From Phycisphaeraceae bacterium (GTDB taxonomy: Bacteria > Planctomycetota > Phycisphaerae > Phycisphaerales > Phycisphaeraceae): a DNA stretch of 46,267 bases. Below the pieces are notes generated by a model, which worked only from the letters and a program-made list of their open reading frames with translations, searched no databases and was not told where the DNA came from. Shown here piece after piece: positions 9,539-45,296 of the stretch (position 1 is its first letter; each line of letters starts with the position of its first letter). The position numbers and the translations under genes were made by a program. The stretch lies in contig JAJDCU010000038.1 in NCBI GenBank assembly GCA_029260655.1, positions 1-46,267 on the forward strand, read 5' to 3'.

Positions 9539-11998
9539 CTACAACAGCGCGACGGGGTCGACATCGACGGCGGTTGTGATGTCGGAGATCAGCAGCTTGC
9601 TGTTGCGCAGCGCCGTCATGAGCTTCTGGAGCTTGCCGGCGGCGTTGGGGGGTGTGGCGATCAGCTCGATCTGCTGGCGGTGGTGGTCTGCGATACGGGC
9701 GATCGGGCAGGGCGCAGGGCCGCGCATGCGGATCTCGGTCCCAATCTCACGGTTGGCGGCTTGCAGATGACGGGCCAGCGCCTTGGCGTTTTCGTAACAG
9801 GCGATGTGGTCCTTGTCACGGATGACGATCCGGGCCATGCGGGATACGGGGGGCAGCCCGACCTCGGCGCGCAGGCCGATCTCGCGCCTGGCGAAAGCTT
9901 CGTAGTCGTGCTTGCCGGCCAACACGATCGCCGGGTCGTCTGGGCTAAAGCTCTGGACGATCACCCGCCCGGGATGCTCGCTTCGGCCGGATCGCCCGGC
10001 AACCTGGGAGATCAACTGGAACGTCCGCTCCGACGCGCGGAAGTCCGGCAGGTTAAGCGCCGTATCCGCGCTGATGACCCCGACCAGACGTACGCCGGGG
10101 AAGTCAAGCCCCTTGGCGATCATCTGCGTGCCCAGTAAGACGTCGATCTCGCCGGCGCGGAACTGATCGAGTGTTTGCTGGTAGTCGCGTGCGTTGCGCA
10201 TCGTGTCTGAGTCCATCCGCGCGGCGCGCACGCCGGGGAACTTGTGTGTTAACTCCTCCTGAACCTTCTGCGTGCCCAGGCCGAACACCGTGACCTTGTG
10301 CCCGGAGTCCGGGCAGTTGCCCGGCAGCATCTGCTCGGCATCGCAGTGATGACAACGCACGTATCCGCCGGTAGGCAGATGTTGGTCCCTGTGGTACACC
10401 ACGGTCGCGTCGCAGTGATCGCACCGCATCATCCACCCGCACCGGTGGTCCGGGCAGGCGATGTAGTTGGCGTAGCCCCGGCGGTTGAGCATCAGCATCG
10501 CCTGGCCACGCTCGCTTGGGGTCTTGCCGTTAAGTACGCGGTCCAGTTCCTGCTCGAGCCGGCGGCTCATCAGGTGAACCCCCCTGCGGTGGCGGCGTTC
10601 CTCCTGCATGTCCACGATATGCACCGAGGGCAGCCGCATCCCCGGCACGCGGTCGGGCAGGCGGATGAGGTGGTAGTTGGGGTTTGGGGGTTGGGCGTTG
10701 GGGATTGGGGGTTCGTGCTTCGATGGCTGGGTGCCCTTCTTGTCCCCAACCCCCACCGCATTGGCGTAACTCTCCAGACTCGGCGTCGCCGACCCGAGCA
10801 CCACGGGCACCCCCAGCGCCTGCGCCCGTTTGATGGCCACATCGCGGGCATGGTAGCGCGGGAGTTGGTCCTGCTTGTAGCTGGACTCGTGCTCCTCGTC
10901 GACGATGATCAGGCGGAGGTTGGCAAGCGGCGCGAACACCGCGGAGCGCGCCCCGACGACGATGTAGGCCTCGCCGTCTCGGATCCTGCGCCACTGCGCA
11001 TGGCGCTGCGCCGAGGTGAGCCCCGAATGCAATACGGCCACGAAATCGAACCGGCTGAGGAATCGCCCCACCGTCTGCGGCGTCAGCGCGATTTCGGGGA
11101 CCAGGACAATAGCGCCGGGGGAGGTGGGGGTTGAGGGAGTCTTAGAGTGCGATCCTCCGGTACCCACCTCCAACACCGCTTCAATCAATCGCAGGTAGAC
11201 CTCGGTCTTGCCGCTGCCGGTGACGCCGTGCAGCAGGTGGACGCCGAAGCCTTCGCCTAGGTGATCTGTAAGGTGTTCGAGCGCTTCGCGCTGGCTTGTG
11301 TTAAGCGTGACCCGCCCGACGGGTTCGATCTCCTGCTGGGCGTGTAGGTCCAGGTCCGACTCGACCCGGCTTTGATGCTCGGCCTCCAACAAACCCCGGT
11401 CGATCAGTTGTTTCACCGGCCCGACCGTCTTCGCGCCCGCCAGGTCTGCCAACACCTTGATATCCAACCACCCCCCGCTTTCGCCTTCACCGCTTGCGGC
11501 TTCGCGCTGCTTTTTCGCAACCCCCATCACCGCGCGCTGAAGCTTCGGGAGTTTGACATCCTCCCCGGGCTCCTGCACGAACCGCACCACCTGCCGCTTG
11601 ACCGACCCGGTGCCTCGTTTCACCGCGGCGGGCATCATCGCGCCGAAGACCATCCCAAGCGGGCAGCAGTAGTAGCTGGAGATCCACCGCGCCAGGTCGA
11701 TCAGGTCCGCCGGCAGCGACAGGCCCCCGGGGTCGCGGCCAACGATGCGCTTGACGTTGCCCTTCGTATAGGCGCTGGTATCCGACAAGGCGACGACGTA
11801 GCCGCTGACACGCTTGTCTCCCCGGCCAAGCGGCACTACCACCCGGTCACCCACCGACAGGCCGGCCAGGTCATCGGGCACGGCGTAGGTCAACCCAGCG
11901 CCGGCGGCGTCCACCCCCCGCTCGATCGCCACCGCGGCGTATCCGCCCGCCGCCGGGACGTTTCCTGCTCGCTCGCCGGTGTCGAATAGCTCGGCCAT
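9539..11998 (-). CDS. priA: primosomal protein N' (replication restart helicase PriA)
   Basis: This superfamily 2 DNA helicase recognises stalled forks and reloads the replisome. The 819-residue protein has the 3'-DNA-binding domain (about 20-110), Walker A GVTGSGKT near 257, DEEH near 366, LGSATPSLES, the cysteine-rich domain, and motifs V-VI ending GRSGRSEHPG. Two features are odd. Two low-complexity loops, near residues 277-295 and 414-440, interrupt normally compact stretches and coincide with inverted repeats in the DNA. The zinc sites are irregular: the first pair is C-x4-C, and the last reads CPDSGH where CPxCG is usual. The start is supported by TATACT 6 nt upstream; the gene is divergent from mutS with 55 bp between starts. 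Confidence 0.95.
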   Translation of the reverse strand: MAELFDTGERAGNVPAAGGYAAVAIERGVDAAGAGLTYAVPDDLAGLSVGDRVVVPLGRGDKRVSGYVVALSDTSAYTKGNVKRIVGRDPGGLSLPADLIDLARWISSYYCCPLGMVFGAMMPAAVKRGTGSVKRQVVRFVQEPGEDVKLPKLQRAVMGVAKKQREAASGEGESGGWLDIKVLADLAGAKTVGPVKQLIDRGLLEAEHQSRVESDLDLHAQQEIEPVGRVTLNTSQREALEHLTDHLGEGFGVHLLHGVTGSGKTEVYLRLIEAVLEVGTGGSHSKTPSTPTSPGAIVLVPEIALTPQTVGRFLSRFDFVAVLHSGLTSAQRHAQWRRIRDGEAYIVVGARSAVFAPLANLRLIIVDEEHESSYKQDQLPRYHARDVAIKRAQALGVPVVLGSATPSLESYANAVGVGDKKGTQPSKHEPPIPNAQPPNPNYHLIRLPDRVPGMRLPSVHIVDMQEERRHRRGVHLMSRRLEQELDRVLNGKTPSERGQAMLMLNRRGYANYIACPDHRCGWMMRCDHCDATVVYHRDQHLPTGGYVRCHHCDAEQMLPGNCPDSGHKVTVFGLGTQKVQEELTHKFPGVRAARMDSDTMRNARDYQQTLDQFRAGEIDVLLGTQMIAKGLDFPGVRLVGVISADTALNLPDFRASERTFQLISQVAGRSGRSEHPGRVIVQSFSPDDPAIVLAGKHDYEAFARREIGLRAEVGLPPVSRMARIVIRDKDHIACYENAKALARHLQAANREIGTEIRMRGPAPCPIARIADHHRQQIELIATPPNAAGKLQKLMTALRNSKLLISDITTAVDVDPVALL
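10678..10757. repeat. G-rich/C-rich palindromic repeat inside priA
   Basis: On the + strand a run of ttggg / ggattgggg words (10678-10717) is followed by its C-rich complement (10744-10757). GGGGGTTGGG (10686-10695) is a perfect inverted match to CCCAACCCCC (10745-10754). On the coding strand it encodes the proline/asparagine loop HEPPIPNAQPPNPN, absent from typical PriA. The 10-mer GGGATTGGGG occurs here (10701-10710) and in the mutS repeat. Confidence 0.7.
11120..11171. repeat. second inverted repeat inside priA
   Basis: GGAGGTGGG (11120-11128) and CCCACCTCC (11163-11171) are perfect 9-base inverted arms around 34 bases. The segment encodes the Ser/Thr/Pro-rich loop GGSHSKTPSTPTSPGA, placed between the Walker A helix and the next core strand, where typical PriA is short. 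Confidence 0.6.
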
Positions 11999-12053: not shown

Positions 12054-14786
12054 ATGGCCAAGGCGTCCGACACCAACCTGACCCCGGCGATGAAGCAGTT
12101 TCACCGGTTCAAGCAGCAGCACCCCGGGTGCGTGCTTTTTTTCAGGATGGGCGACTTCTACGAGATGTTCTACGACGACGCCCAGCTGGCCCACAAGGTG
12201 CTTGGGGTGACGCTGACGCAGCGGACCAAGGGCGTGCCGATGGCGGGCGTGCCCTACCACGCGGTCGACGGGTACCTGCGGCGGATGATTCAGGCGGGCT
12301 ACCGCGTCGCGGTCTGTGACCAGGTCGAGGACGCGGCCCAGGCCAAGGGCGTGGTCAAGCGGGACGTGACGCGCGTGGTGACGCCGGGCACGGTCACCGA
12401 CGAATCGCTCCTGGAAGACGGTCGCGAGAACCCGCTGGCGGCGGTGATGTTCCACGGCGATGACCGGGCGTCGCTTGCGTGGGCGGAGTTGAGCACCGGG
12501 TCCTTTGCGCTTTCGACGCTGAGCGCCGATGCCGTGGCCGACGAGCTGGCGCGGATAGCGCCGCGTGAGCTGCTTTACTGTGAGACGGCGACGGGCAATG
12601 TGCCGACACGGGTTGAGGCGCTGGCCACCTCATTAGGCGGCGGCGCACCGATGGGCAGGCCGGCGTGGCAGTTCCGTCAAGGCGAGGCGGTCGAAGTGCT
12701 CAAACGACAGTACCGCGTGGCCGGGCTCGGCGGGTTCGGGCTTGACGATGCGGACCCGGCGCTGGGCGCGGCGTCGGCGGTGGTCCACTACCTCCTGGAG
12801 ACGCAGCGCACGGGCGCAGACGGCCGGATCGCGCACCTGCGCCCGCCGCGTCGTTTCAGCCGGGACAACCACCTGATCATTGACCAGACTTCGCTGCGCA
12901 GTTTGGAGATCGAACGGACGATGCGCAGCGAGTCCGCCGCCGGGTCGCTATTGGGCGTCTTGCAGGGCTGCCACACCGCGATGGGCAAACGCACGCTGCG
13001 CCACTGGCTGTGCTACCCGCTTTGCGAACGCGCGGGAATCGAGCAGCGGCAATCCGTGGTGCAGGCGATGGTCGATGACACGCGGTTCGAGGGGGCGCTC
13101 AGCGAAGCGCTTTCCGGCGTGCAGGATATCCAGCGGATCACGGCCCGTCTGTCTGTCGGTCGTGCCGCGCCGCGCGACCTGGTTGGACTTGGCCGAAGCG
13201 CCGTACGTATCCGGGCGATCGAACAGCTGCTGGAAGGTCGGCAAGCGGTGGCGGTGTATCACCAGAAGCTGACCGAGCTTGCGCCGGCGGTCGAAACCCT
13301 GGGCCGGCTGATCGACGCAGCCTGTGTCGACTGCCCGCCTACGCACATGCGCGACGGCGGGCTGATCGAGGACGGCTATGACAAGCAACTGGATGAGTAC
13401 CGGTCGTTGCAACGCGACAGCCAGGCCTGGCTCGCCCGGTACCAGAAAAAACTGATCGACGAGACCGGCATCCCCTCGCTGAAGCTGGGCTACAACAAGG
13501 TGTTCGGCTATTACATCGAGACGACCGCCGCGCACAAGGACAAGGCCCCGCACGCCTGGACCCGCCGCCAGACGCTCAAGAACGCCGAGCGCTACGTCAC
13601 CGCGGAACTCAAGGCCTACGAGGACAAGGCCCTATCTGCGCAGAGCAAGTCCGTGGCGCGTGAGCAGGCGATCTTTGGTGACCTGTGCGCCAAGGCGTCG
13701 TCGCAGCTGGAGGACCTGCACCACTTCGCTTTGACGGTCGCCGAGTTGGATGTGCTGGCCTGCTTCGCCCGCCGGGCTGTTCGGCACCGTTATGTCTGCC
13801 CGGCCATCGTGGACGAGCCGGTGCTCTCGATTACCGCAGGCAGGCACCCCGTGCTGGACGAGCTGCTGGGCGACCAGTTCGTGGCGAATGATTTGGAGTT
13901 GGGGGCTGGGGATTCGGGATTAGGGATTGGGGAAGACGCTTCGGAATTGGAGCCCAAACCCCCAACATCTAACCCCCAACCCCAAGCCACCCTCGCCCTG
14001 CTCACCGGGCCGAACATGGCGGGCAAATCCACCTACATCCGCCAGGCGGCGCTGCTGACACTCATGGCCCACGCCGGGTCGTTCGTGCCTGCCGAGCGTG
14101 CGACGATCGGTTTGTGCGACCGGATCTTCACCCGGATCGGCGCAAGCGACGAGCTGCATGCCGGGCACTCCACCTTCATGGTCGAGATGACCGAGACGGC
14201 CAACATCTGCCACCACGCCACCAAGCGCAGCCTGGTCATCCTCGATGAGATCGGCCGGGGCACCAGCACGCTCGACGGGCTGAGCCTGGCCTGGGCGATC
14301 GCCGAGCACCTGGCCGTGTTGGGACCGCGTACGCTCTTCGCCACCCATTACCACGAGCTGACCACACTGCCGCAGACGCATAGCAACGTGACCAACCTCA
14401 ACGTCAGCGTCCGCGAGTGGGAAGACCAGATCGTCTTCCTGCACCGGATCGTCCCGGGCGCGACCGACCGCAGCTACGGGATCCACGTCGCCAACCTCGC
14501 CGGCCTGCCCCCGCAAGTCGTCAAGCGCGCTAACGCGCTACTTAGCGAGCTGTCCGTCAGCCATGAAGGCGCCGCCTCGCCGCCGATCTCCGAGGCCGCG
14601 GTCAAGCCCGACACCCAGCAGATGGGCCTGTTCACCGAGTTCGTCCATCACCCCGTCATCGACCAGATCAAGACCCTGGACATCAACACCATCAGCCCGA
14701 TGCGGGCGTTCGAGTTGCTCAGGGAGATGCGCGGGAAGGTGGAGCAGCCCGAGGCCCAAGGCACATCAGATCCCAGCGGCCGGTGA
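12054..14786 (+). CDS. mutS: DNA mismatch repair protein MutS
   Basis: This ATPase recognises mismatches and small loops and recruits MutL. The 910-residue product has the mismatch-binding GDFYEMF (F35/E37) in domain I, the connector, lever and clamp regions, then Walker A GPNMAGKST near residue 652, Walker B ILDEIGRGTSTLDGLS near 727, and ATHYHEL. The C-terminal helix-turn-helix contains GIHVANLAGLPPQVVKRA. An unusual loop at about 614-645 (GAGDSGLGIGEDAS, then PKPPTSNPQPQ) sits just before Walker A, where homologues have only a few residues; in the DNA it is a G-rich/C-rich palindromic repeat. No mutL adjoins it. Confidence 0.96.
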   Translation: MAKASDTNLTPAMKQFHRFKQQHPGCVLFFRMGDFYEMFYDDAQLAHKVLGVTLTQRTKGVPMAGVPYHAVDGYLRRMIQAGYRVAVCDQVEDAAQAKGVVKRDVTRVVTPGTVTDESLLEDGRENPLAAVMFHGDDRASLAWAELSTGSFALSTLSADAVADELARIAPRELLYCETATGNVPTRVEALATSLGGGAPMGRPAWQFRQGEAVEVLKRQYRVAGLGGFGLDDADPALGAASAVVHYLLETQRTGADGRIAHLRPPRRFSRDNHLIIDQTSLRSLEIERTMRSESAAGSLLGVLQGCHTAMGKRTLRHWLCYPLCERAGIEQRQSVVQAMVDDTRFEGALSEALSGVQDIQRITARLSVGRAAPRDLVGLGRSAVRIRAIEQLLEGRQAVAVYHQKLTELAPAVETLGRLIDAACVDCPPTHMRDGGLIEDGYDKQLDEYRSLQRDSQAWLARYQKKLIDETGIPSLKLGYNKVFGYYIETTAAHKDKAPHAWTRRQTLKNAERYVTAELKAYEDKALSAQSKSVAREQAIFGDLCAKASSQLEDLHHFALTVAELDVLACFARRAVRHRYVCPAIVDEPVLSITAGRHPVLDELLGDQFVANDLELGAGDSGLGIGEDASELEPKPPTSNPQPQATLALLTGPNMAGKSTYIRQAALLTLMAHAGSFVPAERATIGLCDRIFTRIGASDELHAGHSTFMVEMTETANICHHATKRSLVILDEIGRGTSTLDGLSLAWAIAEHLAVLGPRTLFATHYHELTTLPQTHSNVTNLNVSVREWEDQIVFLHRIVPGATDRSYGIHVANLAGLPPQVVKRANALLSELSVSHEGAASPPISEAAVKPDTQQMGLFTEFVHHPVIDQIKTLDINTISPMRAFELLREMRGKVEQPEAQGTSDPSGR
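13893..13985. repeat. G-rich/C-rich palindromic repeat in frame inside mutS
   Basis: A run of gttggggg, ctggggatt and gggattgggg words (13893-13932) is followed by the complementary C-rich run cccaaaccccc / aacccccaacccc (13953-13985). The length keeps the reading frame and no stop is created. It resembles the priA repeat at 10678 in both sequence and G-arm/C-arm order. Confidence 0.7.
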
Positions 14787-44756: not shown

Positions 44757-45296
44757 ATGCCCGACCCCGCCGACCAACACCGCGACAACGCCCAGGGCAA
44801 GACCGCCCGCTGCGCCGTGCTCACCGTCAGCGACACCCGCATCGCCGAAACCGACTCCGGCGGCAAGGCCATCATCGACGCCCTCAAACAGGCCGGCCAC
44901 GCCGTCAGCGATTACACACTCGTCAAAGACGAACCCATCCAGATCGAGTCGCAACTCAACTCCTGGCTCTCCCCTTCCGACCAACCCCCAAGCCCCAACC
45001 ACCAACCACTAGACCTGATAGTCACCACCGGCGGCACCGGCATCGCACAACGCGACACCACCGTCGAAGTCGTCCGCCGCCTTTTGGATAAAGAACTCGA
45101 AGGCTTCGGCGAACTCTTCCGCATGCTCAGCTACGAAGAGGTCGGCCCCGCCGCCATGCTCAGCCGAGCCGTCGCGGGCCTCGCCGGCCAAACATTAATC
45201 TTCACTCTCCCCGGCTCCCCAAACGCCATCAAACTCGCCATGGAAAAACTCATCATCCCCGAGTTGCCGCATATGGTTTGGGAGCGCGGAAGGTGA
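44757..45296 (+). CDS. moaB: molybdenum cofactor biosynthesis protein MoaB/Mog family
   Basis: MoaB/Mog proteins bind molybdopterin and, in Mog and eukaryotic homologues, adenylate it for molybdate insertion. The 179-residue product has AVLTVSDTR, DSGGKAIIDALKQAGH, and the substrate pocket VTTGGTGIAQRDTTVE (GGTG, D, E), then ELFRMLSYEEVGPAAMLSRA and FTLPGSPNAIKLAMEKLI. The loop SDQPPSPNHQP near residue 75-85 is low-complexity and falls on a C-rich repeat in the DNA. The paralogue role (MoaB versus Mog) is not resolved. moaE is 29 kb away in this window, so the pathway genes are scattered. Confidence 0.9.
   Translation: MPDPADQHRDNAQGKTARCAVLTVSDTRIAETDSGGKAIIDALKQAGHAVSDYTLVKDEPIQIESQLNSWLSPSDQPPSPNHQPLDLIVTTGGTGIAQRDTTVEVVRRLLDKELEGFGELFRMLSYEEVGPAAMLSRAVAGLAGQTLIFTLPGSPNAIKLAMEKLIIPELPHMVWERGR
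44971..45008. repeat. C-rich repeat inside moaB
   Basis: ccttccgaccaacccccaagccccaaccaccaacca is a run of C-rich words like the C-rich arms of the priA and mutS repeats. It encodes the SDQPPSPNHQP loop in frame. No G-rich left arm is present, so this may be a half copy or chance composition. Confidence 0.5.

Follow-up and report, generated by a model that had tools for sequence, protein, structure and literature searches.

Dispersed palindromes of seven-nucleotide words lie between genes and in frame within protein loops, MutS among them, in Phycisphaeraceae

Introduction

The mutS gene of a Phycisphaeraceae bacterium carries, just before the sequence of its Walker A motif, an in-frame stretch in which a G-rich segment is followed by a C-rich one. 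Is this stretch an inserted repeat, or is it an old feature of the protein? The DNA analysed here, referred to as the window, is 46,267 nt long, and positions below are those of the window; its source genome is designated G000, and the congeners G001–G005. An earlier note on this DNA had read the mutS stretch as a coding palindromic insertion resembling the RPE of Rickettsia, which are palindromic units of 105–146 bp found in intergenic DNA and also, in frame, inside conserved protein genes (PMC2229807). Heptad repeats of the words GGGAATC and GGGGA(C/T)T are described from Xanthomonas and Nostoc (Rehm et al. 2015, PMC4692102), and heptads of Class I and Class II from the P6b region of the Nostoc tRNA-Leu intron (Kaasalainen et al. 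2015, PMC4476775).

Results

The mutS gene (12054..14786, forward strand) is an open reading frame of 910 aa with Pfam MutS domains I–V. The segment 13893-13985, which precedes GPNMAGKST and codes for about residues 614–645, is an in-frame palindrome made of a G-rich array, an interior and a C-rich facing array, its arms being facing arrays of the seven-nucleotide word GGGATTN. On the forward strand, the G-rich arm (13897..13932) reads GGAGTTG GGGGCTG GGGATTC GGGATTA GGGATTG GGG, the interior of about 20 nt spans 13933..13952, and the C-rich arm (13953..13985) begins GGGGTTG GGGGTTA in its reverse complement. A repeat search of the window placed the arms at 13893-13925 and 13953-13985, 33 nt each, 73% complementary and with a spacing of 27 nt. 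The arms start at a host GGG in Leu-Gly codons, and agree with each other in word and register, not as exact mirrors.

With a finder for period-7 GGGNNTN words, the G and C arms of mutS scored 38 and 25, respectively. In 60 order-3 Markov copies of the window, 61 arms were found with a top score of 26, and no facing pair occurred within 100 nt. The C arm alone could therefore be a chance arm, the pair hardly, and we reject chance as the origin of the pair; the palindrome itself, as first described, is borne out. Its hairpin has a stability ordinary for its composition (z of -0.55 for DNA and -1.46 for RNA against shuffles), which leaves a stable hairpin unsupported as a selected feature of the mutS copy. 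An Rfam scan of the window gave no structured-RNA match, ruling out a known structured RNA as the identity of the element. When the protein was aligned with the solved MutS 7ai5_A, which we take to be that of E. coli, residues 10-616 matched 11-603 and residues 640-893 matched 602-850. The alignment breaks at residue 616 and restarts at 640 with no residues lost from 7ai5_A, so that residues 617-639 (23 residues) are extra.

For the mutS comparison, 41 genomes were matched and 30 loci read; a further 80 related MutS loci, all at no more than 49% identity, were left out of the loop comparison (the named ones, at 46–49%, carry the labels Planctomycetota or Phycisphaerales, among others). Paired arms were present in the loop before Walker A in 9 of the 30 loci, all within the family of the window and spread over five genera. 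Seven of these use GGGNNTN words (G000, G001, G002, G003, G005, G011 and G018), while G013 uses GTGAYGA and G023 an 8-nt word, GGGGCCRA. One weak arm each was seen in G004 and G009, and G019 has three inverted 9-mers and no recognised arms. The arm-free loops range from 54 nt (G029, G033) to 189 nt (G019), with 105–165 nt in G010, G012, G014 and G022; among members of the window's family they measure 57 to 189 nt. Since arm-free loops are often long, the loop varies by itself, and its length has sources other than the arms. The interior of the window's mutS element can in part be aligned with the G005 interior (z 3.5). The loop itself is old and length-variable, being present in 5 of 5 congeners. 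It is probably near-neutral for MutS.

Clean insert edges at 13893 and 13985, which had been expected in relatives, did not emerge at mutS. The congeners do not all carry the same loop, which would have spoken for an old protein feature and against an inserted repeat: G001, G002 and G003 have paired arms in other words, G005 in partly other words, and G004 a weak arm only. The first reading of the mutS palindrome is thus partly supported, because arm-free loops are often long too. In the mutS locus of congener G002 (L033), the Walker A motif reads GPNMAGIST instead of GPNMAGKST, for which sequencing error and decay are indistinguishable; the same locus has a palindrome, AAGGCAAGC...GCTTGCCTT, beside its C arm.

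A second element of the window lies in priA (9539..11998, reverse strand; 819 aa), at about residues 415–441. On the forward strand, its G-rich arm is at 10677..10712 and its short C-rich facing arm at 10744..10755. The only occurrences of the 10-mer GGGATTGGGG in the window are at 10701 and 13923, and the sharing of this word and of the G-arm/C-arm order between priA and mutS was confirmed. We searched 20 genomes for priA and read 19, G001 being incomplete. At PriA loop 2, facing arms were found in G000, G002, G004 and G005, a single arm in G003 and a weak pair in G013. The same place is a bare segment of 39–42 nt in G012, G018, G022, G027 and G029, is short by alignment in G010, G011, G015 and G033, holds longer arm-free segments in G008, G014 and G016, and has inverted 9-mers in another word in G023. 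At PriA loop 1, G002 and G011 have facing arms, G003 a weaker pair, and G004 and G005 single arms. PriA loop 2, then, has relatives with a bare segment; at mutS the loop varies and is present in all five congeners.

Two further repeats were noted in the window. A single C-rich arm (44981..45015, forward strand) lies in a gene with a molybdopterin-binding domain (ORF 44757-45296); its score of 23 is within the range of chance arms, and it is possibly one of them. Its right flank matches a G005 locus at 93% across 107 nt. At 330-419, another facing repeat pair is built of 9-nt units starting CGCAGAT, with 28-nt arms that are 86% complementary; units like these also form a nested pair inside the interior of a heptad element at L070, and follow an arm at L064.

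Throughout G000, a pattern of two and a half words with one mismatch allowed gave 219 matches, of which neighbouring ones overlap; about 100 places are among the matches listed. A sample of 266 kb, made up of 40 stretches and the window, contained 82 arms, whereas its Markov-shuffled copies contained 8. Clustering, with 3 duplicate elements removed, gave 53 elements in these 266 kb, single arms included and a few expected by chance. The sampled stretches of G000, G002, G003, G005, G011, G013 and G018 were picked, among the matches listed, for holding words, and those of G018 often for a visible arm pair. One G013 stretch, L226, was removed for its overlap with L039, the number of G013 pairs being 5 before and after. 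A count of 240 words in G000 was led by GGGGTTG (33), GGGATTG (29) and GGGGTTA (24). Across the class, the GGGNNTN pattern had at least one match in 66 of 198 sampled genomes, some with more than 100, and a reversed control also matched in many, this control being contaminated by the word family itself. Eleven GGGGTTA units stand at a contig end (L085 1-93, the start of C64), contig C23 begins within such words, and C50 and C16 carry them within 100–340 nt of the start; since the words sit at or near contig ends, such arrays may break the assembly.

The earlier note had asked for copies within genes to be counted against intergenic ones, and both kinds occur. Of 51 G000 elements, a crude gene caller based on codons placed 17 inside an ORF (60 nt margin), 14 at an ORF end and 20 in intergenic DNA. 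Elements inside predicted ORFs numbered 12/34 in G018, 5/29 in G003, 9/25 in G002 and 11/27 in G005. All inside-ORF counts are upper bounds, because one G018 element sits upstream of the likely start of asnB. The sampled DNA is 79–87% coding, so genes are under-used by the elements. Among single arms inside ORFs, the C-rich strand is the sense strand in 26 of 30. The host genes in G000 code for MutS, PriA, HSP70 (dnaK), queuine tRNA-ribosyltransferase (tgt), the large chain of carbamoyl-phosphate synthase (carB) and RecJ; those in G018 for glycine dehydrogenase (gcvP), lysyl-tRNA synthetase (lysS), TsaD, HisF and an epimerase-family protein.

Several of these copies coincide with extra protein. 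Compared with the best solved homologue in each case, LysRS has 41 extra residues at an element of 127 nt, whose interior belongs to the extra segment, and DnaK has 37. TGT has 43 residues against 4, and HisF 54 against 3, the extra stretch exceeding the detected element in both. At the GcvP element, part of the native loop is still present.

Collectively, these loci form a class of dispersed small palindromic elements. In each full copy, two facing arms of about 30 nt flank a unique interior, the G-rich arm coming first whichever strand is read. Each arm consists of about 3–5 copies of a seven-nucleotide word. Some copies are intergenic; others lie in frame in housekeeping genes, at protein loops, and encode linkers rich first in Gly/Ser and then in Pro/Asn/Gln.

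In seven genomes, neighbouring arms on opposite strands and less than 250 nt apart stood in the order G-then-C in 88 cases and C-then-G in 2, and 16 further cases had neighbouring arms on the same strand. The interiors span 5–160 nt, and among 86 interiors of at least 15 nt none resembled another of the same genome. The arms form terminal inverted repeats, as in MITEs. No target duplication of at least 5 nt was found in the 88 pairs, whose edges are known to about 4 nt only; duplications of 4 nt flanked 5 of 88 against a shuffled mean of 5.6, a test limited by the fuzzy edges. The G013 pairs, at least five of seven being wrongly anchored, were left out of this result.

An arm is more like its partner in the element than like the arms of the genome's other elements (pooled mirror p 8e-5). 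By genome, the mirror p was 0.0038 in G018, 0.005 in G011, 0.014 in G002 and a marginal 0.061 in G005, and was not significant in G000 (0.17), G003 (0.27) and G013 (0.55). The words of an arm can also follow a fixed order: in G018, TCTG was followed by CTTG 32 times and CTTG by TTTG 15 times, against 9 for TCTG-TCTG and 5 for TTTG-TCTG. In G013, 6 of 9 arms retrieved by an 18-nt pattern continue alike past the pattern, give or take a base, an argument weakened because the pattern itself fixes part of the order.

Additional hairpins are not enriched at the edges of GGGNNTN elements (16/397 against 67/1533 with arm 6; 8/397 against 21/1533 with arm 7). Beside the nine GTGAYGA elements of G013 (L331, L333-L340), short perfect hairpins directly adjoin 10 of 18 edges, against 40 of 270 control windows, and in the G013 mutS they stand on both sides of the element; these hairpins may be terminators. 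As judged by eye, elements in the GGGTCTR dialect of G002, G003 and G005 often have one arm next to CCGGA and the other next to TCAGAA on the inner side, whatever their orientation.

The words found at shared sites differ among related species (GGGATTN, GGGTCTR, GGGTATC, GTGAYGA, GGGGCCRA), and the word at a shared site is mostly one that is common in that genome. The dialects are GGGTCTG with GGGCTTG in G018, GGGTATC in G011, GGGTCTG/A in G003 and GGGRTTN in G000, and several words are used in G002 and G005. When mutS arms were scored for likelihood under seven genome dialects derived with mutS excluded, the own genome ranked first in 4 of 6 cases, second for G002 and third for G005; only 1 other of 720 assignments was as good or better. 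A GTGATGA-type pattern had 12 matches in G013 and one in G018, and none in G000, G010 and G011. G010, G012 and G016 have no GGGNNTN pattern match in the genome and no mutS arms, and G029 has matches in its genome and none in mutS.

We compared 77 orthologous element pairs in which both flanks matched, at a median flank identity of 79.7%; the pairs are non-independent. Their word overlap was 0.169; matched non-orthologues reached 0.123 (Wilcoxon p 0.35) and paralogues 0.236. Despite flank identity of about 80%, orthologous arms were thus not significantly more alike than unrelated arms (p 0.35). G002 and G003, whose dialects are close, had an overlap of 0.412 at orthologous sites against 0.205. 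Changes in word and interior were correlated (Spearman 0.42, 42 non-independent pairs), which may reflect replacement of whole elements or the ageing of neutral interiors, and both may occur. Such species-specific turnover of the arms goes beyond what the earlier reading foresaw.

A different picture was found at dnaK, for which 20 genomes were searched and the loop was read in 10. The interior KKADGSVTLSTKLNPEAC is conserved in G000 and G002–G005 and recognisable in G011, G023 and G010, while across G000, G002, G003 and G004, the genomes with DNA compared, the arms differ or one is lost. Arms can therefore change beside a kept interior. The DnaK loop is short in G009, G012 and G027, and the interior is here an old loop of the family. 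In dnaK of the genus (L076, L306-L312), about 18 conserved residues, KKxDGxVSLSTKLNPEAC, lie between the arms, in a loop that is absent from the solved Hsp70 2kho_A.

Discussion

Among the closest known systems are heptad repeats. Those of Xanthomonas and Nostoc belong to the same family of seven-nucleotide words with a G run, GGGATTG being GGGGATT in another register; they are likewise dispersed and often form convergent inverted pairs, with 70 cases in Xcc, and two Xanthomonas species keep 83% of them in the same gene context (PMC4692102). The tandem GGGNATC/GGGGAYT words of at least two units that characterise them are found in mutS (GGGATTC GGGATTA GGGATTG), and so is the convergent pairing, in 88 cases against 2. 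Those heptads are under-represented on the coding strand of ORFs, which parallels the C-rich sense strand of 26 of 30 single arms here. In contrast, 89–93% of the Xanthomonas copies and 68% of the Nostoc copies are intergenic, whereas here many housekeeping genes carry a copy in frame; and a single word type serves both Xanthomonas species, whereas sister species here differ in their words at one site (PMC4692102). In the Nostoc P6b region, a stem is also built of seven-nucleotide motifs, and at one site several replacements of one class by the other have taken place, the origins of the classes being stated to be unknown (PMC4476775). That case concerns one RNA locus and two classes; the present elements occupy many sites, some of them protein-coding, and use five words or more. 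Mitochondrial protein genes of Nematomorpha likewise contain inverted repeats, both arms of which encode conserved protein regions (PMC6649704), unlike the arms here, which code for loop residues.

The resemblance to Rickettsia is of another kind. RPE families have a consensus over the whole element. In the present elements the arm word alone is shared, with no similar interiors among 86. Both have palindromic units that occur in intergenic DNA as well as in frame in conserved genes (PMC2229807), and this side of the proposed likeness is upheld by a dispersed word family, by coding and intergenic copies and by clear extra segments in priA and LysRS; the link itself is one of analogy and not of membership. 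Among the 10–20 entries listed, of up to 774 matches, a literature search showed no planctomycete or protein-coding version of the heptad palindromes; with few subscription journals covered, the result is weak evidence of absence. Convergent heptad pairs in Xanthomonas, class replacement in Nostoc and coding palindromes in Rickettsia are thus known separately, and their combination was, with that weak assurance, not found.

How, then, do the arms come to carry the word of their genome? The explanation that we favour, at a probability of about one half, is that arms are copied as patches between sites of the same genome, together with fold-back template switching. The arms would be the active unit, and a new arm would be a patch of about 30 nt whose donor is another arm of that genome. 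The register of the G runs would guide this copying, by ectopic template switching or by gene conversion, and the locally dominant word would spread with it, while fold-back switching within the palindrome would copy one arm onto the other. Old sites would be overwritten lineage by lineage, the site and sometimes the interior persisting. In yeast, template switching is reported to homogenise the arms of inverted repeats (PMC8604942), which gives the fold-back step a precedent; the copying between sites is our inference. Patch copying is consistent with the dispersal of the elements (219 matches; 53 elements in 266 kb; 82 arms against 8) and their facing order in 88 of 90 cases, and with the extra protein segments at PriA loop 2, LysRS, TGT, HisF and MutS. 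It is further favoured by the likeness of arms within an element (p 8e-5), the ordered patches of G018, the turnover at the 77 orthologous pairs, the fit of mutS arms to own-genome words, and DnaK, where the interior is conserved and the arms are different. However, it is deduced from sequence, and the within-element match is not significant in G000, G013 and G003 and marginal in G005. The G005 mutS arms fit two other genomes better, the overlap of 0.412 against 0.205 for G002 and G003 is as expected from descent, the mutS hairpin is no more stable than shuffles, edge hairpins, a possible mark of fold-back, are not enriched for GGGNNTN elements, and the DnaK arms were perhaps just added beside an old family loop. 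The correlated change of word and interior (Spearman 0.42) fits whole-element replacement better.

Such replacement would follow if the elements were MITE-like, with the arms as terminal inverted repeats served by a transposase in trans, and if families private to a lineage reinserted at the few tolerated sites. The ordered arms of G018, the likeness of 6 of 9 G013 arms beyond the 18-nt pattern, the junction motifs of the GGGTCTR dialect (CCGGA...TCTGA, by eye) and the LysRS interior within the extra segment all point that way. We nevertheless consider this doubtful, given no target duplication of at least 5 nt in 88 pairs, no similar interiors among 86 within one genome, and a DnaK interior that is kept while the arms differ. 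Y1_Tnp genes also occur in G010 and G016, genomes without GGGNNTN matches, and among the matches listed none of the three in G000 is less than 4 kb from a listed site, the nearest being at 4.8 kb. A REP/RAYT system is unsupported, with no inverted repeat within a single arm among the repeats listed and no Y1_Tnp gene near the listed sites. Arrays might instead grow and shrink in place, GGG/CCC runs of the host seeding seven-nucleotide repeats that drift by slippage, with likeness due to a shared mutational bias; variable-length arrays of this period are known in Xanthomonas and Nostoc (PMC4692102), and the mutS arms begin at the host GGG of Leu-Gly codons. Yet bias alone hardly explains why ordered variants recur at unlinked sites, why 88 of 90 pairs face in one order, or why sister species differ in their word at a single site, which makes local slippage improbable. 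That a genome has one word, or a few, dominating at many unlinked sites, and that arms are ordered as if from a template of about 30 nt, would also suit a telomerase-like enzyme that adds the genome's word to hairpin ends from an internal template, a change of template being a change of dialect. Against this, G002 and G005 each use several words, and no RVT_1 match was obtained in G000 or G005, both element carriers (genomes 95% and 93% complete), so that we discard an RVT_1 writer as the partner and regard the whole proposal as very far from probable. In all, two families were tried as enzyme partners, Y1_Tnp and RVT_1, and neither gave one. A G-quadruplex as an essential property is likewise weakened, because the G013 mutS arms use GTGAYGA words, without G runs, in the same architecture at the same site.

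A broader reading can tentatively be put forward, to which we give somewhat less than even chances: that of genome-wide rewriting, in which each species stamps its own seven- or eight-nucleotide word on both arms at shared sites, even in essential proteins. The elements join three observations that had stood apart, namely convergent heptad pairs, whose role Rehm et al. leave open (PMC4692102), the replacement of heptad classes at one site, and palindromes that code for protein. If the reading is true, a repeat of non-coding type would undergo concerted evolution within the coding sequence of MutS, PriA and DnaK, and would be a source of new protein loops. The elements also suggest that in conserved proteins, the mismatch-repair protein MutS being one, the sequence of some linkers is determined by a process at the DNA level and not by the protein.
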